Source: Diplonema papillatum (taxonomy: Eukaryota; Euglenozoa; Diplonemea; Diplonemida; Diplonemidae). From it: a DNA stretch of 64,000 nucleotides. Below the pieces are notes generated by a model that saw only the letters and a list, made by a program, of their open reading frames with translations, was not told the origin of the DNA and searched no databases. Shown in pieces: positions 917 through 55,313 of this stretch. Location of the stretch: the NCBI GenBank assembly GCA_030068145.1, contig JAPJBO010000012.1, forward strand, positions 434,001 through 498,000, in the 5' to 3' direction. The position numbers and the translations under genes were made by a program. How positions within the stretch are numbered: position 1 is the first letter of the stretch; each line of letters opens with the position of its first letter.

Positions 917-3900
917 TTATGCGGTTCCAGAGGATAGGGGCGGCCGGCTCAAGAAATAGTACTGAACCAGTGCCGCGCGATATAGTAAAAAGCACACCAG
1001 CCTGGCGTCCATCTCCGCGAGCCGCTGGCAGCCTTGGCAACCGCCGTTGGACGGGCTCTCGCCGGCGGGCGCGGTTCGGCCGGGTGACGGAGGCGCGCCG
1101 GCGTCGCGCGACCGCTCGTCGTGCAGGGCCTGCAGCTTGGCCTGGAGCTGCCGCTGCTGCTCGTCGCGCTGGAGGCGGTCGAACTTGAGGCGGAGCTCGT
1201 CGTGGACGCTCTGCGCGTGCTGCTGCCGCGCGGCCTCGCCTTGCAGCCGGCCGCGGGCCGCGTCCAGTTCCGCCTGGAGCCCGGCAACCTGCCGATCACG
1301 CTCCTCGCGGGCTTCTTGCGCCCGGCACAGTTTTTCGAGCAGGTTCCTCGACTCCTTCTGCAAGGCCTGCACTTGGTACTGGTCGACGCTGAGCCGGCGG
1401 GACATCGGGCTGGACGCAGGGGACGCCGAGAACGTGCCGGCCGGCGAATCGTGCTGCGAGGTCTGCCGCGGCTTGCTGTTCGTGGAAGGCGGCAGCAGCG
1501 TGCGCTGCTCGTTGGTCCACGACACGCTCGGCTTGCGGGTCGAATGCTCCGCCGGCGAAGACGGCGCGGCTTCCGCGCGCTTCCTCTTCAGTATGCTCGG
1601 CGAGTGCTGCCGCGAAACCGGCAACGCCTCCGCCGCGGCGCCTTCGTCTCGTTCTTCGATGTGGGCGTCCACGGAGCTGCTACCCCCGTTGGAGTCCGCT
1701 TGCTGCCCTTCCTTGCTTTTTTCGGGGATCGCGGGTTCCTTCTGCGCCGGCGAAGTAGGCGTCCGAGCAGAGGTTTCGCGTGGGGTCTCCTTGCTTTCTG
1801 TGGAGATCACGGGTTCTTTCTGGGCCGGCGAAGTAGGCGTCCGAGCAGAGGTTTCGCGTGGGGTCTCCTTGCTTTCTGTGGAGATCACGGGTTCTTTCTG
1901 CGCCCTCGAGGGCGTCCGAGCAGAGGCTTGGCGTGGGGTCTCCTTGCTTTCTGCGGGGATCGCTGGGTTGTGCTGCGCCGGCGAAGTGGGCGTCCGCGCG
2001 GAGGTTTCACGTGGGGGTTCCCCAGCGCTCGCTTGGTTCTCGGAACCCGGATTCCGCGGCGCCGCGGGTTGCGGCGCCGGGTCCGGGCCGCCGGTTGCGG
2101 CCGGCTTAGGGTGCACGGCCTGCGGGGGTGCTTCGCCGCCCGGCGGCTCGGGCGCGGCGGCGTCGCTCGGCGACGGCTTCGCCTGCGAAGCAGGGGAACC
2201 TGCCGCCTGCAGGTGTGCCTGGGGGGTCGCCGTCGAGGCGTCGGATCTCAGGGGACGCCCGTCGGGTAGGGCGCGAGGAGATGCGGGACCCTCGTTTTCG
2301 GCTGGTTTCACCTCCGTCTGCGTCGTCGCGTTCGCGCGCTCAATCTGCGGGGCCGCATGCGCGCTGCCGGCGGCAGGGGCGGCGCCAGGCCCGCCGTAGG
2401 CTTCGTTCGCCTTCTCTGCGAACGGTGCTGCGGGCAGGGCGGACACTCTTTCGTCAGAGCCCCTCCTCCCGGAGCTCAGTCGGCAGGCGTCCACAGCGGG
2501 AAGAGGTTGCGGGACAGCTGGGGCTGGCTTGTCTAGGCTTGGCTTGTTTAGGCTTGACTTGTCTAAACCAGGCGAGCCGCGTCCAAGGAGGTTGCTGTTT
2601 CTGTCGGGGCTGTCTGTGTCGATGGGTTCTATTACGACGGACGATTCGAGCGCCTGGACACTGGACTCCGTGCACTCGCTCGGCGCGTTGGGCTTCGACG
2701 CGGATATTTTGATCCCCATGCCGGCGGCGTGGCTGCGCAGGCAGCCCTCGCTGAGGCTCCTCGTCCACTCCAACCCGTCGTCCGACATACCTCCTTTGCT
2801 CAGTATCTGCAGCGCGAGCTCATCCGCTCCGGACCACTTTTCGACCTCGTTCGAGCCCATGACGAGCTGCCCCCTCCCTTCCAGTTCCACGACGACGCGT
2901 TCGTTCCCCGTGCCTTCGTACCCTGCTATGACGCCGCGCAGGCCGTTGAACTCGCCCCGTTCGGTCTTCAAAAACACAGTCGGGTTCTCGTTCGCCGCCA
3001 TGAGCACGGCCTCGTAGGCCTGCAGCGCCTTGACCATCCCTTTGTTGCTCGCGATCCTCTCGAGCGGGTTCTTCGCCGCCCCGGCCTTGCCGTCCCTCCC
3101 GTCGACGGCCCGCCGCGACGCGGTGATGACGGCGTTCGCGGCGGACGTCAACTCCTCCTGCCGCCGTTTCCCGTGGTGGTCCTTCAGCGCCCTCGCCGCA
3201 GCTTGTCGCCACACGGTCCGGACCCAGCGCGGTTCGTCTCGCTTGCTGCTGTCGGTGTACGCCGACGGTGTGAGGGAGATCTGCGACATTTTGGTCGGGA
3301 TCAAGCACTTCGGCGACGCCTGCTTCGCGAGCACCGGGCTGCAGTACACCGGGTTCGACGCCGAGTCGTTCGAGTGCACCCCGTACGTGATGGCAGGCGA
3401 CTCCTCGAACTTGTGCATGGGGGTAATAGACCCCCTCCTGATGACTTCCCAGAGCTCGCGTCTCCCTTTGAGCTCCGTGGGCAGGATCGAGAACAGCGAT
3501 TCGTTCCGCGTGATGCCTTTCAGAGACTTCGACCCGTGGCAGTTCAGGTCGACGTTGTCGTCCGGGAGCGCGCCGCTGCGGTACAGCTGCCGGAAGGCGG
3601 CGCCTCCGATGATAACCTCACCGCCCGACCCAACGCCGCCGATCCTCGCAGCGAGGTTGACCATGGGCCCGAAATAGTCCATTCTGCCCGTGATCGGGTC
3701 TTGTTCGCACTCCGGCTCGCCGATGTGGAACCCCATCCGGACGCGGAGCCCGCGGAACGTTCGGTTTCCCCGGGCGTCGAGGAGCTCGCAGGCCTCCTCC
3801 TGCCGCAGGATGGCCTGCGGCCAGTCGACGTTCATCAGCTCCACCTGCGTTTCGAGGCACCACGCCAACGCCGACTCCGTTCGCTGGAACGCGATCATAA

Positions 3901-4365
3901 AGGCGTCGCCCTCCGTCTTCACTTCGTAGCCGCGCCACTTCTCGATCAGCTGCCGGATCACTTGGTTGTGCTGTCCGAGGGCGGCTTTCATGTCGTCCGC
4001 CGCTTTGTCCCACAGCTTGGTGCTACTCTGCACGTCGGTGAACACGATCGTGACGAGGCCCTTCGGCGCCGGGAGGCGGTACCGAAAGTCGTGGGACTGC
4101 ATCACCGTCGCCTCGAGCGACCGGATTATCTTTAGCACCGGCGCGCGCACGTGGACCAGAGGGTCCGTGGGCACTGGTGGTTCGACGACCTGTTTAGCCG
4201 TGGTTTGAATGAAGTAGGCGAAGCCAAAAGAATCGGATCTGAGCAGTGGTGCTTCGTTTGTTTGTGCGCACTTAACGCACGTACTCTCGGCTCGTCAGCG
4301 GGCCACTCAACAGCGGCGACCTTCACGCTAGAAGGATCAATGTCGTTGCGGTGAACGGCAGACAT
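917..4365 (-). CDS. Class III adenylate cyclase with long disordered and coiled-coil C-terminus
   Basis: This protein should make cAMP from ATP. I assemble two exons: 4365-4285 (ATG, 27 codons) and 4189-917, joined across a 95-base GT-AG intron (donor GTACGT) with matching phase, giving about 1117 residues. The cyclase domain is at roughly 70-265. Visible catalytic residues are metal-binding D79 (FTDVQSST) and D122 (KTEGDAF), adenine-selecting K118 and D198, and N205 and R209 (VNLAAR). The D-x6-N-x3-R spacing equals that of known adenylate cyclases. All sit in one chain, so a catalytic homodimer is expected. A Pro/Ser/Ala-rich region follows with three to four repeats of about 21 residues (TPTSPAQKEP-SKETPRETSAR), then a Gln/Arg/Glu-rich coiled coil near 980-1065. 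No membrane segment is evident, so it is probably soluble. The extreme C-terminus may be read-through past a further splice donor. Confidence 0.85.
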
Positions 4366-17079: not shown

Positions 17080-18261
17080 AAAAAAGGATACGGGAGCACG
17101 CGGGGCTCATGCAGATGGGAAAAATCGGCCAATTTATCCGTACCGTAAAACACGCAAACATGCAAGAAGCTGCAGCGCAACCGAGACATTCTTCGGACGT
17201 CATTCAACGAGGAGAAGACGTCGGCAAACAACTACTTTCGCCATCTCGGCTTGATGTTTACCATCAAAACGGAAGCAGTGAGGTCGGAATCTCAGGGCCC
17301 AGGAGGCAGGGTCTCATTCACATGCTGGAGGGAATCCTGAGCCGCGATTCCTTGTCGCCGGGGGAGGCTGCGTCGTTGGCAGGTAAGCTCGCCTTCGCGA
17401 CTTCGGCGCTCTTCGGCAGGATTGGCCGCGTGCCCCTCCAGCCGATCTACAGGCGCTCCAATGCGTCATCGACTTTTGCAGGGTTCAAGTTAGGTGTCGA
17501 TCTTCGAGCATCCGTGAGATGGTGGGCAAGCACGCTGGCCGCAGGAGAGTTGTGTTTCAGAAGATCTGTGCCCCTTCGTCTAGTGCAGCCCGGCGTAGGC
17601 ACCAGATTTGTCCTCTTCACCGATGTCTGCCTCTTCGGTCTTGGCGCGGTCTTAGCTACGGTCGTAGATGGCTTTCCTACCGCGGTCGAATACTTCGCGC
17701 ATCCTGTCCCCCCGGCGGGCTCAGAGCTGCAGATCCACCACCTCGAGTTTGCTGCGGTCTCGGTTGCGTTCTCCCTGTGGCAGATTCGACTTCACCGTCT
17801 CAGTCTGGGTTGACAACAGCATCGTGCTGGGCATACAAGGGAGGACAAAGGCTAAAGAGCTTCTTCTTCCGGTTCATGCGTTCTGGGAGCGTCTAGCTAG
17901 GTCCAGAGGCGATGCGTGGTTCGAGAGGGTACCGGGGGAGGACAACCTCTCTGACCTTCCCAGCCGGCTCAACCATGCCTGGGGGGATATTCCATTTAAG
18001 GGTCTACGACCCAAGAGAAGGGACGTAGAACAACGGATCGTCGACGAAGCGATCGCGGACGTAGAACAACGGATCGTCGACGAAGCGATCGCGGACGTAG
18101 AACAACGGATCGTCGACGAAGCGATCGCGGACGTAGAACAACGGATCGTCGACGAAGCGATCGCGGACGTAGAACAACGGATCGTCGACGAAGCGATCGC
18201 GGATGTGCTCGGGGGCAGTCTGTCCGGCCTGGTAGGCTCTTCCGCGTCGCCTGAGCCGTGA
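17080..18261 (+). pseudogene. DIRS-type reverse transcriptase C-terminal part and RNase H, frameshifted
   Basis: The reading starts in 17,109-17,800 with ...GILSRDSLSPGEAASLAGKL..., the conserved block just after the RT palm in DIRS/Ngaro elements. RNase H follows, with FTDVC (Asp), HHLEFAAV (Glu), then after a one-base frame change near 17,795, VWVDNS (Asp) and GEDNLSDLPSR (Asp). The RT palm with its YxDD box is absent, so the 5' part is lost. The ORF then runs through a five-fold 36-base repeat to a stop at 18,261. It cannot act alone. It would have copied the element's RNA. Confidence 0.75.
18022..18201. repeat. Five exact tandem copies of a 36-base unit
   Basis: The unit begins GACGTAGAACAACGGATCGT and is repeated five times without change apart from the last edge. 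It is in frame with the RNase H ORF and encodes DVEQRIVDEAIA each time, a helix-forming dodecapeptide. Perfect identity means recent expansion. Confidence 0.9.
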
Positions 18262-18344
18262 GAGGAGGAAAGAGAAGACGCAGGGCATCTGCGGCGCTCC
18301 TTTCGTTCGTTCTCACGCCAAGGTCCATTGGGATATGTGCCATT

Positions 18345-18668
18345 GGGTGAATCCCACTAGACATGCGAGGAGAGCGGCCCCGACGGCCAGCATTCGCAAG
18401 CTGTTGCGCCCGCCAGTGCTTAGAGTGTCGGACAACTGTCGTGGTTGTTGCCGCCGCGCAAGCCGCCACCGTTTGGCCACGGCTCGCACGCGCAGCCTCG
18501 CAGGGAGACTTCGCCGGTCGGCTCTGTCCCATAGCTTGGTGGGCCAGTTAAGGGCCGTAACCGTTAGAGAACTGTTTGTCGGAAGAGCGCATTAAACATA
18601 CGTTAAATTAGCGGAATGAGAAGGGAACCACGGCTCCGAGTGACCCATCTCGAGGGAGGTAATTTAAT
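18345..18668. repeat. 324-base direct repeat, copy 1 (left of the tyrosine recombinase)
   Basis: It begins GGGTGAATCCCACTAGACAT and ends GAGGTAATTTAAT. The second copy is at 20,167-20,490 with the same length and about four substitutions. It is internal to the DIRS-like element, between RNase H and recombinase. Confidence 0.9.
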
Positions 18669-18773
18669 GGTAGTTTAATGTCAGCTAATTTCGTGTAAAG
18701 CCCCGGCAGGGAACGAAATTTACCAAACAGGAACGCTGAATCTTTTCTTCCCGCCCACCCTGCCCCAGAAAAG

Positions 18774-19067
18774 ATGATTGGGCGGGTCGCGTTTCTGCGG
18801 ACCTCGTTCAATGAGGAAGAGTGGAGGGACGTGAGTAGAAGCCTCCGAAGCCTCCCGGACGATACGACCCTTCTGACACTGGAGAAGCTTCCGATGTGGG
18901 CAGTGCCGGTGCCTATGCCCAGTCCTGAGCTGTACCGCCGGGTACAGGACCTGGTGAGAGCGCGCGATCAAAGCTCTCCTGTGCTGGGCAGTCCCGTACC
19001 ACCGGCCGAGAAGAGGTCGACGTCCCAGCGGCGGGCGCTGAAACGTGCCCTCGAGGACGTCCCCTGA
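18774..19067 (+). CDS. Small ORF overlapping the tyrosine recombinase start
   Basis: 97 residues, starting at ATG and ending ...RRALKRALEDVP, rich in basic residues at its end. It overlaps the recombinase reading frame by about 22 bases in another frame. It could be a separate accessory protein of the element, or the true N-terminus of the recombinase with a frameshift at the overlap. No family is recognised. Confidence 0.4.
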   Translation: MIGRVAFLRTSFNEEEWRDVSRSLRSLPDDTTLLTLEKLPMWAVPVPMPSPELYRRVQDLVRARDQSSPVLGSPVPPAEKRSTSQRRALKRALEDVP

Positions 19068-20067
19068 TGCGGCCCGCGCTCGCATGAGGAGCCTGTACAC
19101 AGCCGCAGGCACCAGGAGGGTCTACAACTCGAACACGGCCACTTACAGGGAGTGGTGTGCGAGCGAGGGCGTGCAGCCATACCCGGCAACGGTCCGGAGG
19201 CTTGAGACCTTCGGCGGATACCTGTCCGGCATGGATGATGCGGCGTACAAGGCGCCCCACAACATCATCAACGCCATCTTAGCCGAGAACACGGCTGACG
19301 GTTGGGTTCTCGAGGATCCTGCCGACGACATCCGCAGGATGATCAGAGCGTTGAAGAGAGCGGCGCCTGACCCTGAGAGTGGCGAGCCCCTAGGCGCCGC
19401 ACAGTTCCGTCAGATCTTCGGCTTCGTGCGGACCGTTGGCGAGTACGGCGCGGCGCTGCAGCTGCTGGGTGAGCACTTTACTCTCCTAAGGGCATCCAGC
19501 ATGCAGTCGATCCTGACGGAGGATGTCCGCGTCGGCGAGGGCGGCGTGAGGGTTGAATGGACTATGTCCAAGGCAAAAGGGACGTGCAGTAGATACCTCA
19601 CCTTTGAAAGCATCAATCTGTTGCCCCCTTTGCTCCTGCCTAACGGACCCGACGGCGTGCCAGAGTCCATTCGGTACTGCCCTGTCGAGGTCTTTTCCCT
19701 TCTGAAACTCATGGCCAAGGGGAGACGCCTCTTGTGCCCGTTTCCCGTCTATGCCTCGTTTAGGGATGCCCTTCGCGGGACCGCGGGGAAGCGAGGCATC
19801 CTGCAGCCGCTGAATGACGGCGACGGCTCGGGACGGACGAGGGCGCGTTTTCTAACCCACAGTGCCCGGATAGGTGGTTGTTGCACCCTTCTGAAGTCGG
19901 GTATGGACCCCATGCAGGTTCAGAAGATGGGTGATTGGGCGTCGGGAGATATGGTGACCCACTACGGTGAGAAAGTCCTAAGGGACCCGGGGTGTGTTGA
20001 GGCGGTTCGTTTCTACAACCCGGTCTCGCTCGCCCACTTTTACACCGCTCGGACCCGAGTGGGATGA
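19045..20067 (+). CDS. Tyrosine recombinase of a DIRS/Ngaro-like or Crypton-like element
   Basis: 340 residues. It would cut and rejoin DNA through a covalent phosphotyrosine, integrating a circular element copy. The N-terminal part (residues 10-110) looks like the SAM-like core-binding domain (SLYTAAGTRRVYNSNTATYREWC). Catalytic residues visible are R149 (FTLLRASS), H272-x-x-R275 (THSARIGG), W298 (GDWAS) and Y307 (THYGEK), with a candidate Lys at 176-178. All are intact, so the enzyme may be active. The apparent start is GTG; an upstream ORF overlaps in another frame. It lies between two 324-base direct repeats, downstream of a DIRS-type RNase H. Cryptons, which carry only a recombinase, are the alternative. 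Confidence 0.85.
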   Translation: MPSRTSPDAARARMRSLYTAAGTRRVYNSNTATYREWCASEGVQPYPATVRRLETFGGYLSGMDDAAYKAPHNIINAILAENTADGWVLEDPADDIRRMIRALKRAAPDPESGEPLGAAQFRQIFGFVRTVGEYGAALQLLGEHFTLLRASSMQSILTEDVRVGEGGVRVEWTMSKAKGTCSRYLTFESINLLPPLLLPNGPDGVPESIRYCPVEVFSLLKLMAKGRRLLCPFPVYASFRDALRGTAGKRGILQPLNDGDGSGRTRARFLTHSARIGGCCTLLKSGMDPMQVQKMGDWASGDMVTHYGEKVLRDPGCVEAVRFYNPVSLAHFYTARTRVG

Positions 20068-43738: not shown

Positions 43739-44022
43739 AGAAAGATTCAGTGTCGGGATGGCACCTCGGTCGCAAAACTGCCAATCTCCGCACCCGTGCT
43801 GCGACGAGAGGCATACCGTATCAAAGGACAACACACTCGCTAAGGAGGAAATACAGTGTCGGGTGATCTTCGTCTGTTGACCTACCCCCCCAGGCATCTT
43901 GTTAAGAACCATCCATCCATCCATCAGCCGGCTGACCCCACGACGCACTAGTAAGGTACATAACTTGTGAAAATAACTAGTTATTTTATAACTAGTTATA
44001 TTTGATAACTTGTGACTAGCAC

Positions 44023-44109
44023 GAGCTAGTTATATAACTAGCTCGTGCTAGTTATATAACTAGCTTGTGCTAGTTATATAACTAGCTCTGCTAGTTATAT
44101 AACTAGCTC
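44023..44109. repeat. Left palindrome array (GCTAGTTATATAACTAGC)
   Basis: Four copies of the 18-base palindrome separated by 3-4 bases (TCGT, TTGT, TCT). Further out are degenerate ATAACTAGTTAT palindromes at 43,972-44,000. Likely a multimeric protein-binding site. Confidence 0.9.
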
Positions 44110-44560
44110 CTAGGGTATTTTACGGGTGAAATGCATTGAAATACACCATCACTAAACAGCTACCACAGCTCGAAAGACACAAAATAACAAGAAAACAGCA
44201 GCCTCGCAGGGAATGTGCCAGCAGGACCAAGAAGGGAAGTGTGTTGTTACAAACTGAGGCCGTGGAAAATCAGAATGTTCCACACGATACTTCGTCTGAT
44301 GCACTCCTATGAATGTGTGGACGCAGAAACTCTGCGGGCACATGGGAACTAACTGCCGAGAACCGGGCGCGACTGGGACTATCACTCAACGCATGCGCAG
44401 AGCGGATACGGATCGTGAAGGAAGAAACTGGGTTGCTATGCGCCGAGGCTGCCGCATCGTGGCTCCTATTATGCAAATTCTCTCACTTGTAACTTGCTCC
44501 TCATGGTATTTTACGGAGAAATGCACTGAAATACTGCCCACTGAACGGCGACCACAGCTG
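44106..44560 (+). pseudogene. Partial duplication of element left region and ORF2 start
   Basis: 44,106-44,170 (GGTATTTTACGG...GAAATGCATTGAAATAC) is repeated in diverged form at 44,497-44,560, just upstream of ORF1. Between them, 44,311-44,440 matches the first ~43 codons of ORF2 (from ATG 45,933) at about 85 percent with a lost ATG and frameshifts. It looks like a remnant of an older internally deleted copy. Confidence 0.7.
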
Positions 44561-44579
44561 ATATACACGAATAATCAAA

Positions 44580-45611
44580 ATGAGCAAGCGCGCACGTGAG
44601 ACAAAGGCGAAGACACCCGAGAAGAAGAAGCAGAAGTCCGGCGACTTGGAGCCGGACGCGAATGCCAAGACGGACGCGAACATCGTGGAAGACTTCGTGG
44701 AGTTGTTTTTGATGGTAAAGGAGGGAGAGGAGGTCCAACACGTGCCTTTGAAGGCACTGGTGGGACAGCTTTTTGGTCTCTCGTTGTCAACGAAGAATGG
44801 CATCCTCGGCAAGGCTATTGCCGCAAAGTTTCCTGCGCTCAAGGCGCTGAAAAACCAGACCCAAACAATTGGCTCAAAACTCTATTCGCTGCGGGTGAAA
44901 ATGAACACCGACTTGGTGTTCCGCGGTGTCGGGCTCCGCAAAAAGCTGACGGCCACGGCGAAGGACTCGGAGGCGTACCACCGATTGAAGGCGGCTACGG
45001 TAGGCGATGTCAACCTGGAAACGGTTGACTTGCCGTCCTTATACAAGTGCAAGACGGCATCGGGGGCTATTACTCCCGCTGCTGCTGTCACAGGGACTCG
45101 CAGAAACAAGTGGCCGGACATCACTGTCCTGGGGAGGAAACAGGTGCGCGAAGAGGGTGTGGACGTCACCTACTTCTGCATCGTTATCGAAAGTGGGTGC
45201 AGTGTCGTGTCGACTGTGCACCCACCGACGCTGACAGGCAACCGGCTGGATTTCACGTTTCTTCGTGAACGTCCGTCGGAGCACTGTGAGGCTGGTTTGT
45301 ACACCGGAAGCTACACCCTCCCTCCAGACGTCATGATCGACAGTGTCCGGCCCCTGCAGGTCCGGGGGGCTAGCGGGGGATTTGCAACCTTTGTGAACTT
45401 TCCCCTGTCGAGGAAGAAACATAGCGTGAGCCTGCAGCCCGGTGACTGGCGCAGCAATCCAGATGTCGTGGGGCTTTTCTCCGACTCGGGGGACGACGCT
45501 GATGGCATCGAGGATGAGGACGACGACGACAAAGACTCTCAAATCAAAGCCGACGTGGAGGATGATCCTGATGCCAGCGACAATGAGAGCGTGACGTTTG
45601 TTCCCAACTGA
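44580..45611 (+). CDS. ORF1 of the palindrome-array element, unknown protein with acidic tail
   Basis: 343 residues from ATG 44,580, intact. The first 25 residues are Lys-rich (KRARETKAKTPEKKKQK), like a nuclear signal. Residues ~35-115 are helical (EDFVELFLMVKEGEEVQHVPLKALVGQLFGL). The middle (~130-285) is beta-rich (TYFCIVIESGCSVVSTVHPPTLTGNRLDFTFL). The last ~50 residues are highly acidic (SGDDADGIEDEDDDDKD). Basic head, beta core and acidic tail recall histone-chaperone-like or DNA-binding accessory proteins by composition only. No catalytic motif. It sits 320 bases before ORF2 on the same strand inside the same inverted ends, so both likely serve the element. Confidence 0.75.
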   Translation: MSKRARETKAKTPEKKKQKSGDLEPDANAKTDANIVEDFVELFLMVKEGEEVQHVPLKALVGQLFGLSLSTKNGILGKAIAAKFPALKALKNQTQTIGSKLYSLRVKMNTDLVFRGVGLRKKLTATAKDSEAYHRLKAATVGDVNLETVDLPSLYKCKTASGAITPAAAVTGTRRNKWPDITVLGRKQVREEGVDVTYFCIVIESGCSVVSTVHPPTLTGNRLDFTFLRERPSEHCEAGLYTGSYTLPPDVMIDSVRPLQVRGASGGFATFVNFPLSRKKHSVSLQPGDWRSNPDVVGLFSDSGDDADGIEDEDDDDKDSQIKADVEDDPDASDNESVTFVPN

Positions 45612-45932
45612 AAACCTTTTTGTTTTTGCAGCACCAAAATCAGATCATCCTTTTTATTTTGTACTCCGTTTTTTGAGCAAACCAAGGTACAGGCACATCA
45701 CATACCGGTAAGCAACATTGACACTTTGCGGGTTACGTAAGCAACTTTTAAAACTTCGCTGGTCACAACAGTTTTTGATGAGTAGGATGCGGTCTTCCAG
45801 GTTCCTCGTAGGGAAGTGTCGAACGAGGAAGGAAATTTATTGTTAGAACCAGACCATGGATACCACTTGAAATCTTCCGCAGGACAAAAAAAATACTCCA
45901 TTCTTTCCTGGCCAGCTTACACTCTTAAGAAG

Positions 45933-47771
45933 ATGGACGCAGAAACTGTGCGGGCAATTGGGAAGATAATAGCCGAGAACCGGACGCGATTGGGACTATC
46001 ACTCAACGCTTGCGCAGAACTTGGACGGATAGTGAAGGAAGAAACTGGGATTGCGATGGGGCTGTCGCAATCGGTCGTGGCCAAGGCCGGCGAAGACTTC
46101 AAGCTGATGGCAGGTAGGGCCCTGGGGAATATCGCGGAATCCCTCCAGTTTTTATTGCGCAAATTTCCGTTCAAGACGTGTAGGGAGGCTCCCTCCGTGA
46201 TTATATTCATGGACGCGTACAACACGGGGAATGCCTTTCGCTCTCGGAGCTCCAGGCAGCGGCTGGCCATCTCCCTCTCGGCTGGGAGGACTGCGACACG
46301 CTTTCTTACAGTTTGTGACAAGCGAAAGCCGCAGTTCCACGAATGGTGGATATTCAACGCCTTGCCGCAGCTGACGCAGATTCAGACGGGCAGTTTCAGC
46401 AAAGGGAAGCACGCAGCCTCTGTACAGCTGTTTCGCTTCGGCGGGGATCATGCGGAGCTGTGGTCGCTGTTCAGTGGTGTTGGCGGTTCTGGCCATCGTA
46501 GTGCGTTTTGTACGACGGCTGCCGGTGACTGGCTAGAGCAACTGCACGCCTGCGAGAGGCTCAGCCTGCAAGAGATGCATGCAGCCGGCTATACATGCCA
46601 CATCGCGCAACGGTTCCTGCAACCGTGCTTCACGATGACCCCGGCCCTGCACGACGTGAAAGGGATGATACGCCTCATTGTGCAGACGCTTCCGCACGCA
46701 GCAGGGATAGAGCTCGCTGTCATCGGCAGCATTGGCAACAACATGACAGGCTCCCAAGCACGCAAACTGCTGGCTGCCCTGATAGCGCAAACGCAAGGGA
46801 ACCAGTTGACACTGTGTTCCCTCATGGATGTTCTCGTGTTCTTTCGCTATCAGGACATACCTGTGCGCTTCTTTTACGCAGACACTCCAGACAGCCAAAT
46901 TGTGAAGTATTTTTTGTTCAGTTTACTGAGCTACCACGCACTCATCTTTGTGCTGGAGTGGGCCAATCCCGGAGTCACTCGTTCAGCTTATGCCCACAGT
47001 ATGAGTCACTGGTTTGATGTTCAGGATGCCCATCGGTTGGTGACATCTGATGAAGCGTTCGAGCAGATGAATGGTGAACGCAAACGATGGGTGGCGTGCA
47101 CGTCTCAACAGACGATGGAACGTGACTTGCAAGTGTGCGAGCTTCAGCACAAACACTTCGACAAAAAAGGTCAACGCACTCCACTACCGGAGCTTACACC
47201 CCCCGCAGCAGGAATACCGAGACTATTTGAGTACGACACTTTTCATTTTTGCATCTGCATTGTTCACAGGGGGAAAAATGCCACGACAAACTTAGTTGCG
47301 CGTCTCAAAAATCTGGGCCTTGGTGCGCACGTAGGTCGCAGAACGCGCTGGGGAATAAAATTCAATGCGACCCCGGGTGTTGAAACTAGTGAAATAATGT
47401 TTTGCGTTTGTGAGGAAGCCCCCTGGAAGCTTCGTCCTCCTGAGAGAGAGAAAGACAGCGCCGAAGTGGCTGAATCGGAAAGCAGTGATAGCAGTGAAGG
47501 CGAGGCGCACTCTTGTATCATATGCGGAAGGAGCTTCAGTCGGGTGTACGGTCTGTACGCACACTACGACTCTCAGCACCGCCCTGCCGTGACATGTGAG
47601 TGCAAGGAAGACTGTCCCGCCTGTGCGAAGTCTGTACTAAAACGTGGCTTGAGCCAACATATCTTGTACAACCATGCAAGTCTACTGACAAAGACGAAGT
47701 GTCCTCTGTGTCTTGAGAGCTTTTCCTCCGCAAGACTAAGAGACTCGCACATGAAGAAACGCCATCTGTGA
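45933..47771 (+). CDS. ORF2 of the palindrome-array element, candidate novel transposase with C-terminal zinc fingers
   Basis: About 612 residues from ATG 45,933. An in-frame GTG at 45,816 would add 39, but the partial duplicate at 44.3 kb begins at the same Met region, favouring this start. The N-terminal ~60 residues are a helical domain (TVRAIGKIIAENRTRLGLSLNACAELGRIV) that could be HTH-like. The central part has Asp residues in hydrophobic strands (SVIIFMDAYNTGNAF, CSLMDVLVFF, VRFFYADTPDSQ) that might be catalytic, but no DDE/DDD spacing can be assigned by eye. After a Ser/Glu-rich linker come three C2H2 fingers (CIICGRSF...H-x4-H, CPACAKSV...H-x4-H, CPLCLESF...H-x4-H). The intact frame suggests recent activity. 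An alternative is a non-transposase host-derived cargo gene. Confidence 0.75.
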   Translation: MDAETVRAIGKIIAENRTRLGLSLNACAELGRIVKEETGIAMGLSQSVVAKAGEDFKLMAGRALGNIAESLQFLLRKFPFKTCREAPSVIIFMDAYNTGNAFRSRSSRQRLAISLSAGRTATRFLTVCDKRKPQFHEWWIFNALPQLTQIQTGSFSKGKHAASVQLFRFGGDHAELWSLFSGVGGSGHRSAFCTTAAGDWLEQLHACERLSLQEMHAAGYTCHIAQRFLQPCFTMTPALHDVKGMIRLIVQTLPHAAGIELAVIGSIGNNMTGSQARKLLAALIAQTQGNQLTLCSLMDVLVFFRYQDIPVRFFYADTPDSQIVKYFLFSLLSYHALIFVLEWANPGVTRSAYAHSMSHWFDVQDAHRLVTSDEAFEQMNGERKRWVACTSQQTMERDLQVCELQHKHFDKKGQRTPLPELTPPAAGIPRLFEYDTFHFCICIVHRGKNATTNLVARLKNLGLGAHVGRRTRWGIKFNATPGVETSEIMFCVCEEAPWKLRPPEREKDSAEVAESESSDSSEGEAHSCIICGRSFSRVYGLYAHYDSQHRPAVTCECKEDCPACAKSVLKRGLSQHILYNHASLLTKTKCPLCLESFSSARLRDSHMKKRHL

Positions 47772-48033
47772 GGGGAGAGAGCGGTGTTAGCTTTGTTCTC
47801 CGACCATCTGTCTCCTTCTACAGCTCTGTAAAGCATTTCTGTTCAGATCGATTACCTCAAGACGCTTCTTGCTTCACCGTTCCGCTAAGGTGAACACAAC
47901 GAAGAGACAACCGAGACAGCCGAGCAGATAGCAGAAAAAGCGGGCCAGGATACCTAGTCCGAGTGATATACACGTCCTTTTTGACTCAACTCAATGCAGT
48001 TTCACTGTATTTCACTGGTTATTCTGCTGGGAG

Positions 48034-48160
48034 AGCTAGTTATATAACTAGCAGAGCTAGTTATATAACTAGCAGAGCTAGTCATATAACTAGCAGAGCT
48101 AGTTATATAACTAGCACGAGCTAGTTATATAACTAGCTCGTGCTAGTTATAAATTTCACT
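48034..48160. repeat. Right palindrome array (GCTAGTTATATAACTAGC)
   Basis: Five copies separated by AGA, ACGA or similar, one with a T-to-C change (TAGTCATATAACTAG). The outermost copies have CGAGC-type spacers matching the outermost left ones, so the array is inverse as a whole. Confidence 0.9.
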
Positions 48161-48215
48161 AGTCATTGAGCTAGTTAATAACTAGCAAAACTCCATAACT
48201 AGTGCGTCGTGCCCC

Positions 48216-48700
48216 TCCCCCCCCCCCCCCCCCCCCTCATAGGCTATTTTCACTGTGGAGGGGGGAGACGCTACCTGTCACACTCTAAGGTGGTCACCAC
48301 GGTGGGCGGTCAGAAAAAAAAAATTTTTTTTGCCCCAAATACCCCAAATACCACACTTTGGAAAATTTTTGTGGGCCCACTTTTGGCAGGGAATTTTGAC
48401 CATTTCACCTTGGAGAATTTGACCACCCAGCCTCCAAGGCAACGGCACTGTAGAGGGGGGGGGTCTGGTTTATCCGGCCATCCGGCCAAAGTGGCTGATC
48501 CTTAACAAGAGCGCTGACCCCCCCCCCCCGTGTTTAAGATCGCGTTTTTCCGTGTTTAAGATCGCCCCCCAAAAAAACCGATCTTATACACGGGGGGGGA
48601 CGATCTTAAACACGGGGGGGGACAAAAACACCCCAAAAAAAAAAAAAATCGCTGCGCGGGGCCTTGAACCCCCCCCACCCCAAACCAGACTACACCGCTG
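48216..48700. repeat. Homopolymer-rich fold-back region, CCGTGTTTAAGATCG family
   Basis: Long C-run at 48,217-48,236. At 48,518-48,622 two CCGTGTTTAAGATCG units face CGATCTTATACACGG and CGATCTTAAACACGG, giving a ~100-base fold-back with G/C-run ends. An A-run then CGCTGCGCGGGGCC follows, a motif repeated at 55,613 and 55,687. No gene. Confidence 0.75.
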
Positions 48701-48879: not shown

Positions 48880-50040
48880 ATCGTTGTCAGCCGGACGGCA
48901 AGTGGGGTTTTGGGGCTGTTTTTGGGGTGTCTCCCAGAGGGGTAAACGTTGCTTCCGTTTGTTTGGGTTTTCTTTTGTGAAAGTCAGGGTGCAAAGACGA
49001 GCCTGCCCACAGAGCACTTTTGAAGGCAGAATCTATGTCTGCATCTGTGATTGCCAAGTATGAGTCCGCGAGCCACTTGCACACCTCGTCACGGGTTGGC
49101 GCAGGAAGCTTCGCACTGTTTTCTGCAACAAGCTGTTGCGAGGACCAGTCTATCCACTTGGAACGAAGAAGTCGTCGCACCTTCAGATTGCAGGCGCTCT
49201 GGTCGCCAACATTCAAGTGACCTGACGTGTTCGGAGGTATAATGAACACCAGCCAGCCCCGCGATCTCGCCTCCTTCACGACAGGAATGCTGTAGTGCGA
49301 CTTGTACCCATCCACCATTACGAGAAGCTCATACTTCCCTGAGGGGAAGCTGGGTAATGTACAGATACTCGAGCATTACTTCGTAGTCGCACACCTTCTT
49401 TTCGGCACATGAAGTGCACATTGATGTCGTGCTTGTGCCTGTTCTGGTCAAACGTGGGGCGACCCCGTCCTTCCGTGATAGTGTGTGGCCCCTGCCAAAC
49501 AACAAGTGGGTCCATCCTCACCTTTTCCGACACAGAGATGTTTCTTTGGGTGTGCTCCACGTACACCCCCCAGCTCAGGATAGCTGTCATGTTCCGCTTC
49601 TTGTTTCCAGCGGTGCATGCTCTGACCCGGGCTCCACACTCTTTACTGAGCACACCGTGGACTTGGCCAACGGGAGACAAATCTCGCCCATTGCGTGTAT
49701 CACTTCGAATCTCTTCGAGTAAACGACCGCATGGATTGCTTGGCGGGCAAGCGAAATCTCCGAGTCTGTTCCTGAGAGCTGGAGAGAGGCATATGAGCCA
49801 ATCCTCCTTGTTGTTGTTGTTATTATCGTGTTCGCCGGAAACGCGTCCACCAAGTTTCTTGATTCGGCGGGTCCAGGTTTTCTGATGCCCTTCGTTCCCC
49901 TCATATTCGCGCTGCGACGAGAGGCTATTCTCCGTGAGACGGGTGTCAATAGGACGGCCAGGATCAAATACTGCGTTGATTAGGCACAGCATCACAGCTG
50001 CAACGAGGGCAACCTGACTCGTGTATGTGAGCATCTTGTT
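48880..50040 (-). pseudogene. Decayed pogo-like DDE transposase
   Basis: On the minus strand the reading ELLVMVDGYKSHYS (around 49,318) is the second-Asp motif of the DDE_1/pogo family. It is followed by GWLVFIIPPNTSGHLNVGDQSACNLKV, the conserved P-P-N-T-S...L-x-P/V-x-D block with the third Asp, and a helical tail. Upstream, CDYEVMLEYL and ...RMDPLVVW are in other frames, so at least two frameshifts (near 49,345 and 49,400) separate the parts. The N-terminal DNA-binding half is not recognised. Downstream it merges with a minisatellite. Confidence 0.6.
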
Positions 50041-50739: not shown

Positions 50740-51876
50740 GTGTGGTCGTTGTGCGGCGATTCCGACGTGGTTGGGGAAGCGGTGAAGGCTCTGGGTGCCG
50801 TGACAACCGTCAAGCGCCTCCGGCACGCGGGCAGCTACTACAAAGGGAACACGGTGAAGCTTTTGGAGCTGACGGAAGAAACAGACGGCAAAGTGGCTGC
50901 CTGGTGTGCAGCTGAGAAGGGATTCTCGATTCACCCTGCGGTCTGGGTGGTGAAACCGCCGGAAGGCATCGAACTTGAAGTTTTCCTGAGGAAGGCCGCG
51001 CGCGGGGACAAAACGATGCGCCCCCCCTTGGACATTCTTGAAGCGGCGGACAGGCTCACTATGGGCGTAAAGGTAATGAGAGCGTCGGCGTCCGGGTACA
51101 GGGTTTTTGTCGACCCAAAGAACGAGGGAGAGATAGAGCGATTCGCGGCCTACCTAGATGCAGCTGGGATCGCCGTCAAGCGGGACGGCATCTTTGTGAA
51201 AACTAAGGAGCAGGCGATGCGGGACAAAGAACGATACTGGGAAATGGTGAGGGAGGGTTTCGGAGTGACTGGGCTCGATCGGATGCTGGGGGAGTACGAA
51301 ATGGGGATGATCCTAAAGCAGGTAGGAATCGAGAGAGACTATGTGTTGAGGCCAGTGTACGGGCTGGGGAAGGGGGTGACGGCGCATAGTCTGGAGGGGC
51401 TAGACGAGGATGAGCAGGCCGACCTGCAGCGCTACGAGTGCAAACTGCTGAATCGGAGGATCCGCTTTGGGAAGCTGAAGGACATAGTCGGAGACAGGGA
51501 CGCGACCAGACCCACGTACGCGAGCGTGGCGACTAAGAAGGACGAGGGTACAGCGACGAGCGAGACGGGGTTTGCGAGAGCCGTTGAGCAGGAGACGGAG
51601 GAAGAGGGGGAGGCGAAAGTGATGGTACAGGAGGAGGGGGTGCTGGGGAGAGTGGCGCCCGCCGGGGTGGAAGAACGAAAAGCGGGGTCTGGGAGGGGAA
51701 AGGGGCACGGAGGGAAGGGAAAAGGCGCGAGGGAAGGGAGAGGGAGCGCAGGAGCAAACCCGCTGATGTCTGACGTGGAGATGCGAACCGAGTCAACCCC
51801 GATAAAGAGGCCGCGCGAACAGGCGTCGGGTGCCACGCCGCCTCCGAAGTCGCAGGCAGGGGAAGGCAGCTTTTAG
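50740..51876 (+). CDS. LINE ORF1 (gag-like nucleic-acid-binding protein), 5' truncated
   Basis: 378 residues as counted from a GTG. The frame stays open upstream to the element edge (KFGETDILDALENV...), so the true start is lost. Residues ~100-220 contain two possible RRM-like or helical units (GVKVMRASASGYRVFV, VKRDGIFVKTKEQAMRD). PTYASVATKKD near 255 resembles the linker often found in LINE ORF1 proteins. The C-terminus is Gly/Lys/Arg-rich (GSGRGKGHGGKGKG) and would bind RNA. No CCHC knuckle is seen. Its stop overlaps ORF2's first codon as TAGTG. Confidence 0.7.
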   Translation: MWSLCGDSDVVGEAVKALGAVTTVKRLRHAGSYYKGNTVKLLELTEETDGKVAAWCAAEKGFSIHPAVWVVKPPEGIELEVFLRKAARGDKTMRPPLDILEAADRLTMGVKVMRASASGYRVFVDPKNEGEIERFAAYLDAAGIAVKRDGIFVKTKEQAMRDKERYWEMVREGFGVTGLDRMLGEYEMGMILKQVGIERDYVLRPVYGLGKGVTAHSLEGLDEDEQADLQRYECKLLNRRIRFGKLKDIVGDRDATRPTYASVATKKDEGTATSETGFARAVEQETEEEGEAKVMVQEEGVLGRVAPAGVEERKAGSGRGKGHGGKGKGAREGRGSAGANPLMSDVEMRTESTPIKRPREQASGATPPPKSQAGEGSF

Positions 51877-54800
51877 TGAGCGCCTTAGACCCGCCTCGAC
51901 CGATAGCAAGCAACAGCTCTACCAAGCATGCACCAATCAACTCGAGCCGCGAATTTCTCCTACCCTTCCTCCCACAACCAAGCGTCATGATCCCCACCTC
52001 GCCTGAGAGGCGTCTTACCCTGGTGTCCTGCAATGCCTCCTCGAAGATGTGCCTGGAGCGGTTTTTCCGTCTCCTCCCCTCCGCTGATGTTCTGACGGTG
52101 AATGAGATTGGCCGTGAACCCACAATCTTCAGAGAGTATGCCTCGCGTGCCGGATGGCGCACGGTTGTCATTGGAACCTGTCCGTATGCACATGAAAAGC
52201 CCATTGCCAGAACCGCAATCCTCATACCCAACCAAACGCCGCTGACGGCCGACTGGTGCGTGTCCGGATTTGGCGCTTGCAGTGCTGACCTACACTTGGC
52301 AGACGCGACGCTAAGGGTGGTCAGCGTATACGTCCCGTGCAACAAGCGTGATCGTATGACCTTCCGTCTCGGCGAGTGGGTAGCAGGCCGCGCAAGGCAG
52401 TGTGCTTCTGACTACGTTGTTGTCGGGGACTTCAATCCCAGAACGACCCCGATGGTCGAGGCGAGGATGCGTACAGAGCCTGCCCGAGAACTTGTGCGGA
52501 TGAGAACTACCTTTTCAAGATCTAATGCAACCTCGTCGCTGGACCGGGCTTTCGTACCTCTGAACTCTCGCTGGAGCCTATCGGCAGTCAAGTTTACTGG
52601 AAGTAGCGATCACGCCGCCATAGTTTTGGTACACGACAGAACCCTCAATGGGGCCCCCAGGATGGTATACCCGTGCAGGGGACAACAGCTTCGCCAGACG
52701 ACCTTCGCTCAACTGATGGAGGACATTAATCGTGCGAGTGATCAAGCGCCTCCGCGACCGAAGAACACAAAGGTTGCGCGTCTCCAGACCGCCCTCCACG
52801 AACGATTCATCCGACGACACTTGGCAAGGCCCGACCAACGAGCACCCGTGAATGCCGAAATCCGGTCGATCCGTCGCAAACTCGACTTGCTGACCGCGAC
52901 GAGGGGGTCCGCGCACCTCGCGCGGCATCGGGCGCCCTACCAGCCCCCCGTAATCGATCATCCGGACACTTTCACCCAATACTTGCAAGCGAAGTACCAA
53001 TCGGAGCCCAACGTTGTGCAAATGGCACGCCCGCTATATCCGTATCGTGGTGTGACACTCCGACCCGAAGAAGTAAAAGCTGCGACCAGCTGCATGCGAC
53101 CAACAGCAAGAACGGCCGACTATTCGCCCAAATTTCTGAAAGCAATGGAAAAAGAAGCAATGGAAGCGACGACGGCCGAATTGAACCTGTGGTTGCAGGA
53201 GGGCCTCCCTCTACGGCAGCGCGTTTCGTGGATTTTCCTCTTTTGGAAAGGCAAGCCACTCCAACGGTCCAACCCCCGCGGGTACAGACCGATAGCTATA
53301 ATGCCGTTGTTTTCGAAGCTGCTCCACACCGCTTTATACCTGAAGCTGAAGCCCCTCGTTCGAGGACACATCCTCAGATGCAACTTTCAGTACGGATGCG
53401 GCCGGGCGAGCGGGGCGGCCCAGGTGATCCTCTTCGCGAAGGAATGGCTGGAAAGCGACCCGTCAGACGAAGACGACGAGAACGTGCTCCTGCTGGTGGA
53501 TGTGTTGTCAGCGTATGACTCCGTACCGCATGAGAAGCTGGTGAAATGCGTGGAACGGCTGCTAGGACGGCAGTGGGCGGAGACGATTGCACGCGTGATA
53601 GAGGGCCAACTTGTAACAATAGCGCACTACGAGGGGTTCACGACCCCGGTCCGACTAGAGAGGGGCCTACTCCAGGGATCCTCTCTGAGCGTGTTACTTT
53701 TCCTGCTGTACACGTGCGAACCGCCTGCTGGTGAAGCCGTTCGGGCGTATGTGGACGATGTGGTGGCAAGGACAACTAGGTCGAGACTAAGCCAGACCTT
53801 CGGAGCCCTGCAGAGTTGGGCACGAGCCCGGGAATTGGACCTGGCGGACGAGAAGGTGGTGGTTGTGGCGAAGTCAAAGTTCGAGTGGGGCGAGAACCCG
53901 TCGAGGGGGACGACCGAGGCGGCTGTGGTGCTTGGCGCCTGTGTGCATGCGAAAAGGGTGGAGGGACAATGCGCCAACGACACGGAGAAAGGAGAGCGTT
54001 TCGCTAGGCTCATCGACTTTGTCAATTCCCACCACTTCCGGTCGACACGCCGGAAGTGCGCCCTGGTAAGAAGCCATGTGCTGCCCACCCTTGCTGTCCA
54101 TTGTCACTCTTCGTGCTTCGACGCAAAGTCGCCTAAACTGGTTGCGAATATGCAGAAGCTCATCCCGAAGCACCGACACAGCAAAGGGCTGAGCGGATTT
54201 GCTACTTGTAGAGAGGGCTTTGGGTCCATGACCGTCGAGAGTTTGATGCATCTACAGCGAACGCGGGCCCACCTTGCATACTATTGTGACGTGTTGCATG
54301 ATCGACTCCCGATGCAGGGCTTTCTGCGCCGGCCACCGAGGAGGGGCACGCCGGGGGAGGATGTGATACGCCTTGTGGAAATGGCCGTGCGGAAAGAGTG
54401 GGACGGAACAGCGACCCTCGTGGTGGCCTCTGATGGCGGCTTTTTGGAGGAGGAGGCGCGCGGGTCCGCAGGTGTATCGGTCGGGCAGACCGTGGTAGGG
54501 TGTGCGGTGGTTGGGACCGTCACATCCAGCACGGAAGCCGAGCTCTGCGCGGTGTTGGTGCTCGCGACGGCGCTGCGCAGGTGTGGCGTCCCCCCAAGTG
54601 CTGTAGAATGGCGGTGTGACAGCCAGGCGGCCATCAAGCGAGCCCAGCGGAGCGTAGAGGACGACCCGGTGGCCAGGATTGTGAGCCCTTACGGACAGTG
54701 CATGCAGTGGCACCGGGGACATGCTGGAGACCAGTACGTCGATCGGGCAGACGGGGCGGCATCGGAGGCCTTGCTGACCGGGGGCCCTCTCTTAGACGTG

Positions 54801-55313
54801 GAACGCATATACGTGGAGGGCGGGATACCGACGGTCTGCGTGCACGAGAGGGAGGCTTTCCTGCAGCTTGACGCTCCGACCCGGTTCGTAAAGAGGGCCG
54901 TACAGCACATGGAGTCGAGAGGAGTGCTGAGGAAGATCCGGGAGATAGCATCCCACACCGCGACCAAAGGGTCGACTCTCCAGGCGTTAGAGCGAGTACC
55001 TGGGGCGGTGGACCTATTCCAGGCAATCGTACGCCGTGCGGTCATGCCGAACAGGACTCGAGTGCAATGCAGGCTGTGCCAGCGCGCGGCGACCGCCCAA
55101 CACGTCCTGATGGAAAACGACGCAATCCACAACGCAGCTTCTAGTGTTCTGGAGGCCTACCCGCAAGGACTGCCCAGCTTCAAAGGTTTGATGGAGGATT
55201 TCGCTCTACGAAGGCCGCCGGCGTTGAAGTTCGTTGCTGAGCGTGTAAAATCGACTTATGACGATCCGCTAACCAACCGCTGGACCGCTGCCATCATGAA
55301 TTACCTGCGTTGA
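51876..55313 (+). CDS. LINE ORF2: endonuclease-reverse transcriptase-RNase H polyprotein
   Basis: 1145 residues. It nicks target DNA, reverse-transcribes the LINE RNA and removes RNA from the hybrid. The APE-type endonuclease spans ~45-255 (NASSK, GDFNP at ~184, SDHAAIVLV). The RT spans ~420-690 (FLFWKGKPLQRSNPRGYRPIA, VDVLSAYDSVPHEKL, GLLQGSSLS, AYVDDVV at ~624). RNase H spans ~845-965 (VVASDGG, STEAELCAV, EWRCDSQAA, HAGDQYVDRADG), with D, E, D and D present. A CxxC...H knuckle (CRLCQRAATAQH) lies near 1065. All motifs are intact, so the enzyme may be active. Translation could begin at GTG 51,876 by stop-start coupling with ORF1, or at a later ATG. Confidence 0.9.
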   Translation: MSALDPPRPIASNSSTKHAPINSSREFLLPFLPQPSVMIPTSPERRLTLVSCNASSKMCLERFFRLLPSADVLTVNEIGREPTIFREYASRAGWRTVVIGTCPYAHEKPIARTAILIPNQTPLTADWCVSGFGACSADLHLADATLRVVSVYVPCNKRDRMTFRLGEWVAGRARQCASDYVVVGDFNPRTTPMVEARMRTEPARELVRMRTTFSRSNATSSLDRAFVPLNSRWSLSAVKFTGSSDHAAIVLVHDRTLNGAPRMVYPCRGQQLRQTTFAQLMEDINRASDQAPPRPKNTKVARLQTALHERFIRRHLARPDQRAPVNAEIRSIRRKLDLLTATRGSAHLARHRAPYQPPVIDHPDTFTQYLQAKYQSEPNVVQMARPLYPYRGVTLRPEEVKAATSCMRPTARTADYSPKFLKAMEKEAMEATTAELNLWLQEGLPLRQRVSWIFLFWKGKPLQRSNPRGYRPIAIMPLFSKLLHTALYLKLKPLVRGHILRCNFQYGCGRASGAAQVILFAKEWLESDPSDEDDENVLLLVDVLSAYDSVPHEKLVKCVERLLGRQWAETIARVIEGQLVTIAHYEGFTTPVRLERGLLQGSSLSVLLFLLYTCEPPAGEAVRAYVDDVVARTTRSRLSQTFGALQSWARARELDLADEKVVVVAKSKFEWGENPSRGTTEAAVVLGACVHAKRVEGQCANDTEKGERFARLIDFVNSHHFRSTRRKCALVRSHVLPTLAVHCHSSCFDAKSPKLVANMQKLIPKHRHSKGLSGFATCREGFGSMTVESLMHLQRTRAHLAYYCDVLHDRLPMQGFLRRPPRRGTPGEDVIRLVEMAVRKEWDGTATLVVASDGGFLEEEARGSAGVSVGQTVVGCAVVGTVTSSTEAELCAVLVLATALRRCGVPPSAVEWRCDSQAAIKRAQRSVEDDPVARIVSPYGQCMQWHRGHAGDQYVDRADGAASEALLTGGPLLDVERIYVEGGIPTVCVHEREAFLQLDAPTRFVKRAVQHMESRGVLRKIREIASHTATKGSTLQALERVPGAVDLFQAIVRRAVMPNRTRVQCRLCQRAATAQHVLMENDAIHNAASSVLEAYPQGLPSFKGLMEDFALRRPPALKFVAERVKSTYDDPLTNRWTAAIMNYLR

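Follow-up and report, generated by a model that had tools for sequence, protein, structure and literature searches.

A two-gene element with palindrome arrays inside its ends

The window, as we call the whole 64,000-nucleotide stretch of the Diplonema papillatum genome analyzed here, contains a complete element (family A) with two genes, ORF1 and ORF2, framed by terminal inverted repeats (TIRs) and subterminal arrays of a palindrome (Table 1). An earlier note on this DNA had described a perfect 14-base repeat at the ends, an inner array of an 18-base palindrome at each and two intact co-oriented ORFs of 343 and ~612 residues; all of this stands, both frames being open, and its view that the layout fits protein binding is shared here: the arrays look like protein-binding sites. 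Degenerate half-sites also lie outside the left array (~43970-44020). Within the window only the two ends match CACGACGCACTAGT at ≤2 mismatches; because 4 of 100 shuffled windows gave at least two such matches (mean 0.34 per shuffle), a single TIR pair is by itself modest evidence. For GCTAGTTATATAACTAGC at ≤3 mismatches, none of 100 shuffles gave any match.

Table 1. Features of the family A element in the window (positions counted from its first letter)
Feature	Position	Strand	Remarks
Left-flank CC that may be the 2-bp target duplication of the window copy	43937..43938		ambiguous, C-run
Complete autonomous element, family A, 4273 bp	43939..48211	+	ends, arrays, ORFs, copies
Left TIR CACGACGCACTAGT	43939..43952	+	14 bp, perfect
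Left array, four exact units of the 18-bp palindrome GCTAGTTATATAACTAGC	44025..44107		spacing 21-22 bp
Non-coding repeat of the initial ORF2 codons (45934-46049), within the ORF1 leader	44318..44432	+	87-90%
ORF1 (343 aa), predicted helper that binds the arrays	44580..45611	+	
ORF1 residues 29-122, predicted RFX-type winged helix	44664..44945	+	
ORF1 residues 178-276, beta core modeled at low confidence, with weak alpha-crystallin-like matches	45111..45407	+	
ORF2, 612 aa, predicted DDE transposase, RAG1-like fold	45933..47771	+	
D94, predicted first catalytic Asp	46212..46214	+	9/9 proteins covering the position
D172, predicted second catalytic Asp	46446..46448	+	10/10
S190-x2-C193, site of the clade's C(2)C	46500..46511	+	S in 9/10, C193 in 10/10
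H355-x3-H359, H(3)H motif	46995..47009	+	11/12 rows; P0008 gapped
E374/E377, candidate catalytic Glu	47052..47063	+	E377 preferred
Three C2H2 zinc fingers, residues 528-611	47514..47765	+	
Right array, 5 copies of GCTAGTTATATAACTAGC, one with 1 mismatch	48035..48137		spacing 21-22 bp
Array half-site in the right TIR region, CACTAGTTAT reading inward	48195..48204	-	
Right TIR CACGACGCACTAGT	48198..48211	-	14 bp, perfect
Right-flank CC that may be the 2-bp target duplication of the window copy	48212..48213		

The ORF2 duplicate in the ORF1 leader gives a 76.7% amino-acid match to ORF2 residues 11-40, and the leader also carries a decayed duplicate of itself (44505-44560); both point to an old rearrangement within the element. 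Elsewhere in the window are co-oriented ORFs of RNase H-like and tyrosine recombinase (Phage_integrase) type, resembling a DIRS-type retroelement (17109-20067); a probable LINE, seen as a 1145-aa ORF that includes a reverse transcriptase domain (RVT_1) (51876-55313); a minus-strand 143-aa ORF without a Pfam match that by eye resembles a pogo/Tigger-type DDE transposase fragment (48890-49318); and a likely host gene on the minus strand, whose 1085-aa ORF includes an adenylate/guanylate cyclase catalytic domain (920-4174).

Copies, mobility and target-site duplications

A search of the genome (271 Mb, 2910 contigs) recovered 86+89 occurrences of the 14-bp end against 1+1 for its reversed control, and 81 matches to the ORF2 protein, 16 of which (the window's included) span the full 612 aa at 100% identity. 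Among eight full-length copies that were fetched (L031-L038), L034 and L035, which lie at two other sites, match the window element in 4273/4273 bp, and the other six are 98.1-99.9% identical, the differences being mostly gaps of array units. The earlier note would have doubted the element had the TIR been missing from other copies of the ORFs; it bounds the other fetched copies.

With the window copy left out, a 2-bp target duplication is present at 25 of 28 family A end pairs (TA 13, CA 5, TG 5, TT 1, CG 1), the exceptions being L046 (TA/TT) and L053 and L056, which lie in TA-rich sites. The duplication of the window copy itself (GACCC, element, CCCCTC) could be CC or CCC and is ambiguous because the insertion sits in a C-run. 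The comparison of occupied with empty sites suggested earlier found, for 12 of the 28 insertions, in the sequences analyzed and among the matches listed (59 of 64), unoccupied relatives that the joined flanks plus one 2-bp copy match across the junction; ten of these are gap-free there by eye, L051 is inexact and L039 has four extra bases. These are a TGCA beside the insertion in the left flank of L039, missing from the unoccupied relatives and perhaps the footprint of an earlier excision. The element is a real, recently mobile DNA transposon, and the recent activity suspected in the earlier note is supported by the identical copies elsewhere and the 2-bp duplications.

Shortened forms also occur: L039 and L041 are internal deletion forms, and L053 (226 bp) and L057 (238 bp) are almost end-only and keep one intact palindrome unit and none, respectively. 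An 8.9-kb unit, L051 (G000:C127:10640-19770), comprises a near-complete element with a truncated left end and, beyond ~4.5 kb of other DNA, a further left end; it has TA duplications on its flanks and looks like a compound unit that moved. Copies of a single host repeat, marked by C/G runs, surround the insertions in L031, L034-L036, L038, L041 and L042, and the window flanks (43885-43938 and 48213-48463) also belong to this repeat, which runs contiguously in L007 (1564-1904); the window contains unoccupied relatives of several such target sites.

Related families in the same genome

Both ORF1 and ORF2 are also encoded in families B, C and D, as established by full reading of one or two copies each. 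Family B (L079) is 65% identical to A in ORF2 and 47% in ORF1 at the amino-acid level, with ends CACGACGCACTTGT and arrays of a 20-bp palindrome, CACTTGTTATATAACAAGTG; family C (L080-L082) has 55-57% identity in ORF2 and 36-37% in ORF1, with ends CACGGTGCAGTAGTAAA and arrays of CACTTGTAAAATTTACAAGTG and its variants. Their ends occur 209+213 (B) and 170+177 (C) times in the genome, against 3+3 and 0+0 for the controls. In 20 end pairs hand-picked among the places listed, the 2-bp duplication is present in 10/10 of B (TA 8, CA 2) and 10/10 of C (TA 5; CA, TT, CT, AG and CG one each); pooled over the three families, a pyrimidine-purine step is duplicated in 41 of 45 cases. Several families look recently mobile, because identical copies are found in one genome.

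Family D (ORF2 28-29%, ORF1 24-26% identity) has the ends CACGGTGA and, in L043, interrupts the left end of a derivative of family A, with a TA duplication. We rejected L043 as a family with the family A TIR, as what it contains is this nested fourth family. The subterminal repeats of D (GGGCATGTGCCACACCC) are unlike those of the other families.

In the A-B comparison, ORF1 has a pN/pS of 0.36/0.70 and ORF2 one of 0.23/0.71; the fewer amino-acid than silent-site changes indicate purifying selection on both genes, a claim limited to direction because silent sites are close to saturation. In a tree of nine ORF2 proteins, the A-B pair alone was resolved.

Array half-sites and element ends

The array half-site reads CTAG in A and CTTG in B, and the same position in the TIR differs likewise, with CACTAGT in A and CACTTGT in B. 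We scored half-sites over the first 21 bp of both ends of each family. The A half-site (9 bases) scores 6, 8 in A, 6, 6 in B and 5, 5 in C, and the B half-site (10 bases) 9, 9 in B, 7, 9 in A and 6, 6 in C. The C array has two forms, CACTTGTAAA (8, 8 in C; 8, 8 in B; 8, 7 in A) and CACTAGTAAA (9, 9 in C; 9, 8 in A; 7, 7 in B), and the ends of D score 3-5 with every half-site. The ends of A, B and C contain an array-like half-site, and the family-specific match of half-site and end is clear for A versus B and equivocal for C. We read this, in a small sample, as one protein probably recognizing both array and end.

The arrays might instead be products of replication slippage or regulatory sites (silencing, promoter) rather than sites of transposase assembly. 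Their length differs by whole units among near-identical copies, so slippage clearly edits unit number, and L057 does without an intact unit; against this, intact units are kept in most gene-less copies, even in the 226-bp L053, half-sites recur inside the TIR in A-C, albeit not always family-specifically, and a binding array could serve regulation too, as the available part of the Spm literature has it (PMC2613891). We regard slippage or regulation in place of assembly as quite improbable.

The two proteins

By sequence, both ORFs fall in no described family, as the earlier note had proposed: Pfam searches reported no transposase model for any of 10 ORF2 members (E≤10; the filters drop most matches above ~0.1), and the best match for four ORF1 members was an unrelated-looking one (E 0.012). 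In a protein database ORF2 has eight relatives (~47-51% identity, four partial), and the search with ORF1 returned itself alone; no relative was confirmed among 49 pattern stretches examined in virus contigs and 25 in those of prokaryotes. HMM searches of the PDB returned no RAG1 among the best 60 of 88 ORF2 matches, and no RFX for ORF1. The ORF2 frame as called mechanically begins at a GTG, at 45816.

The note's further claim, that there is no known transposase signature, is not supported: the predicted fold of ORF2 is RAG1-like, with RAG1 first by 2.8 Z in the fold comparison of the model, and motifs of the clade are recognizable. The model and the motifs support ORF2 as a DDE transposase whose probable active site comprises D94, D172 and E377 (or E374), with H355-x3-H359 as a candidate half of the zinc site common to RAG1 and CACTA-type enzymes. 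Alignment of ORF2 to a known superfamily, which the note had named as a result that could overturn its new group, thus has a divided answer: ORF2 is related by fold and motif to a known group, yet stands unplaced inside it. RAG1 could conceivably come first by common layout only, with ORF2 nearer to some other RNase H transposase that contains a helical insertion, such as the P element. P elements, however, make 8-bp duplications, which differ from those seen here; the H(3)H motif, CAC termini and short duplication fit the RAG1/CACTA group, and with the lead of RAG1 in the modeled comparison we consider such an affinity very improbable.

The three C-terminal fingers reported earlier agree with Pfam zf-Di19/zf-C2H2 matches and with their conserved Cys/His columns, nine of 12 of which are kept in 10/11 covering rows, two in 11/11 and H611 in 9/11, the exceptions being the family D row (where the frame is lost) and P0005. 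In ORF1, the N-terminal third, which includes much of the better-predicted part of the model, is predicted to resemble an RFX winged helix, and the modeled beta core is weakly like small heat-shock domains.

C2H2 fingers commonly bind DNA; hence, in the same transposon, those of ORF2 might read the palindromes and the TIR, with ORF1 an accessory protein (assembly, regulation, chaperone-like) that reads no sequence. The mostly kept finger columns and the heat-shock-like beta core are consistent with such a division, whereas the predicted RFX-like region of ORF1 argues for ORF1 as the reader, as does its faster divergence (the A-B identities given above), which is as expected for a reader of changing sequence. 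En/Spm, too, has a separate array binder in the available part of its description (PMC2613891). Reading by the fingers is rather unlikely, and we favor ORF1 as the array binder.

A proposed mechanism

We propose, with a probability of roughly three in four, that this is an autonomous two-protein cut-and-paste DNA transposon of its own lineage near the CACTA-Mirage-Chapaev-Transib/RAG1 group, with ORF2 as the DDE catalyst and ORF1 as the array binder. Briefly, ORF1 dimers would bind each 18-21-bp palindrome via the RFX-type winged helix, the array placing these sites two helical turns apart on one face of the DNA. With a further half-site in the TIR, the bound ORF1 could pair both ends and pass them to ORF2, which would cut at CAC/GTG and join the ends to the target strands with a 2-bp stagger, usually at a pyrimidine-purine step, giving a TA, CA or TG duplication. 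The near end-only copies (226-238 bp) and the 0.95-1.3-kb derivatives would have been moved in trans. En/Spm, according to the available part of its description, needs both TNPA, the binder of its subterminal repeats, and TNPD, its putative transposase (PMC2613891); by analogy, this division of labor would fit ORF1 acting on the palindromes and the TIR half-site, and ORF2 in cutting and insertion.

More tentatively, and with odds that lean against it, we envisage a superfamily-level RAG1-related lineage with a self-invented two-protein system of end recognition, in which an RFX-type winged-helix protein, perhaps oligomerizing via a small-heat-shock-like domain, reads the palindrome arrays, and array and TIR half-site co-vary so as to keep the codes of co-resident families separate. 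Our reserve is increased by the main family C half-site, which matches the ends of A, B and C equally well. As co-resident families differ in array palindrome and TIR, the end reader, the role of the array in end pairing and code divergence are directly testable.

Comparison with known systems

En/Spm (CACTA, maize) has, in the available part of its description, a comparable plan: two element-encoded proteins, a short TIR starting with CAC, direct and inverted repeats inside both ends, deletion derivatives and a target duplication of a few bp (PMC2613891). The present element differs in that: (i) it ends in CACGACG, not CACTA, so that its CACG..CGTG termini agree with the CAC..GTG of EnSpm/CACTA and the classical start is absent; (ii) it duplicates 2 bp rather than 3; (iii) its ORFs are apparently separate and uninterrupted, where En/Spm uses splice forms; (iv) its array units are palindromic; and (v) a CACTA-type Pfam transposase was reported for none of the 10 ORF2 members at E≤10. 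Transib makes a 5-bp duplication, against 2 bp here; relative to RAG1/Transib, ORF2 has ~12% identity, mostly S-x2-C instead of C(2)C and C-terminal zinc fingers, and ORF1 stands in place of RAG2. Tc1/mariner combines a mariner-type DDE domain with TA; here Pfam reported no DDE match, and duplications go beyond TA.

ESTA (EnSpm-like, rust fungi) shares a 2-bp duplication that is often TA, a RAG1-like transposase and most clade motifs, and its description, in the part available, includes no two-gene plan with arrays (PMC12730594). In the present families TA is the commonest duplication but not the exclusive one (A 13/25, B 8/10, C 5/10), CA, TG and others being used too. PlavakaA and PlavakaB share 2 or 2-3-bp duplications and most clade motifs. 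The element might therefore belong in a named 2-bp-duplication lineage (ESTA, PlavakaA, Mirage), looking unplaced because the proteins were left uncompared. This gains from the TA duplication of ESTA and the 2-bp one of PlavakaA in the accessible text of PMC12730594, and from the mostly CA..TG termini of the clade, seen likewise here. It loses from the lack of a reported Pfam transposase match, from duplications that are not strictly TA, from the C(2)C, said to be common to all, being altered in 9/10 proteins, and from termini given in the same text as TGT..ACA for PlavakaA and CATCA..TGATG for PlavakaB, against CACG..CGTG here (PMC12730594). We judge placement inside a named lineage unlikely, on a comparison that drew on published termini, duplications and motifs.

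A separate lineage remains our preferred placement, and a literature search judged by title or abstract opening found no description of such a transposon group. Set against CMCT, the families have: (i) at the C(2)C after the second D, S-x2-C in 9/10 proteins and C-x2-C only in family D; (ii) before the last E, the H(3-4)H motif; (iii) 5'-CA..TG-3' termini, as in most cases, with CACG..CGTG in A, B, C and D; (iv) a duplication of 2 bp, within the 2 to 5 bp of that group. The group that gave rise to RAG1 would extend to a lineage that sequence models have missed.
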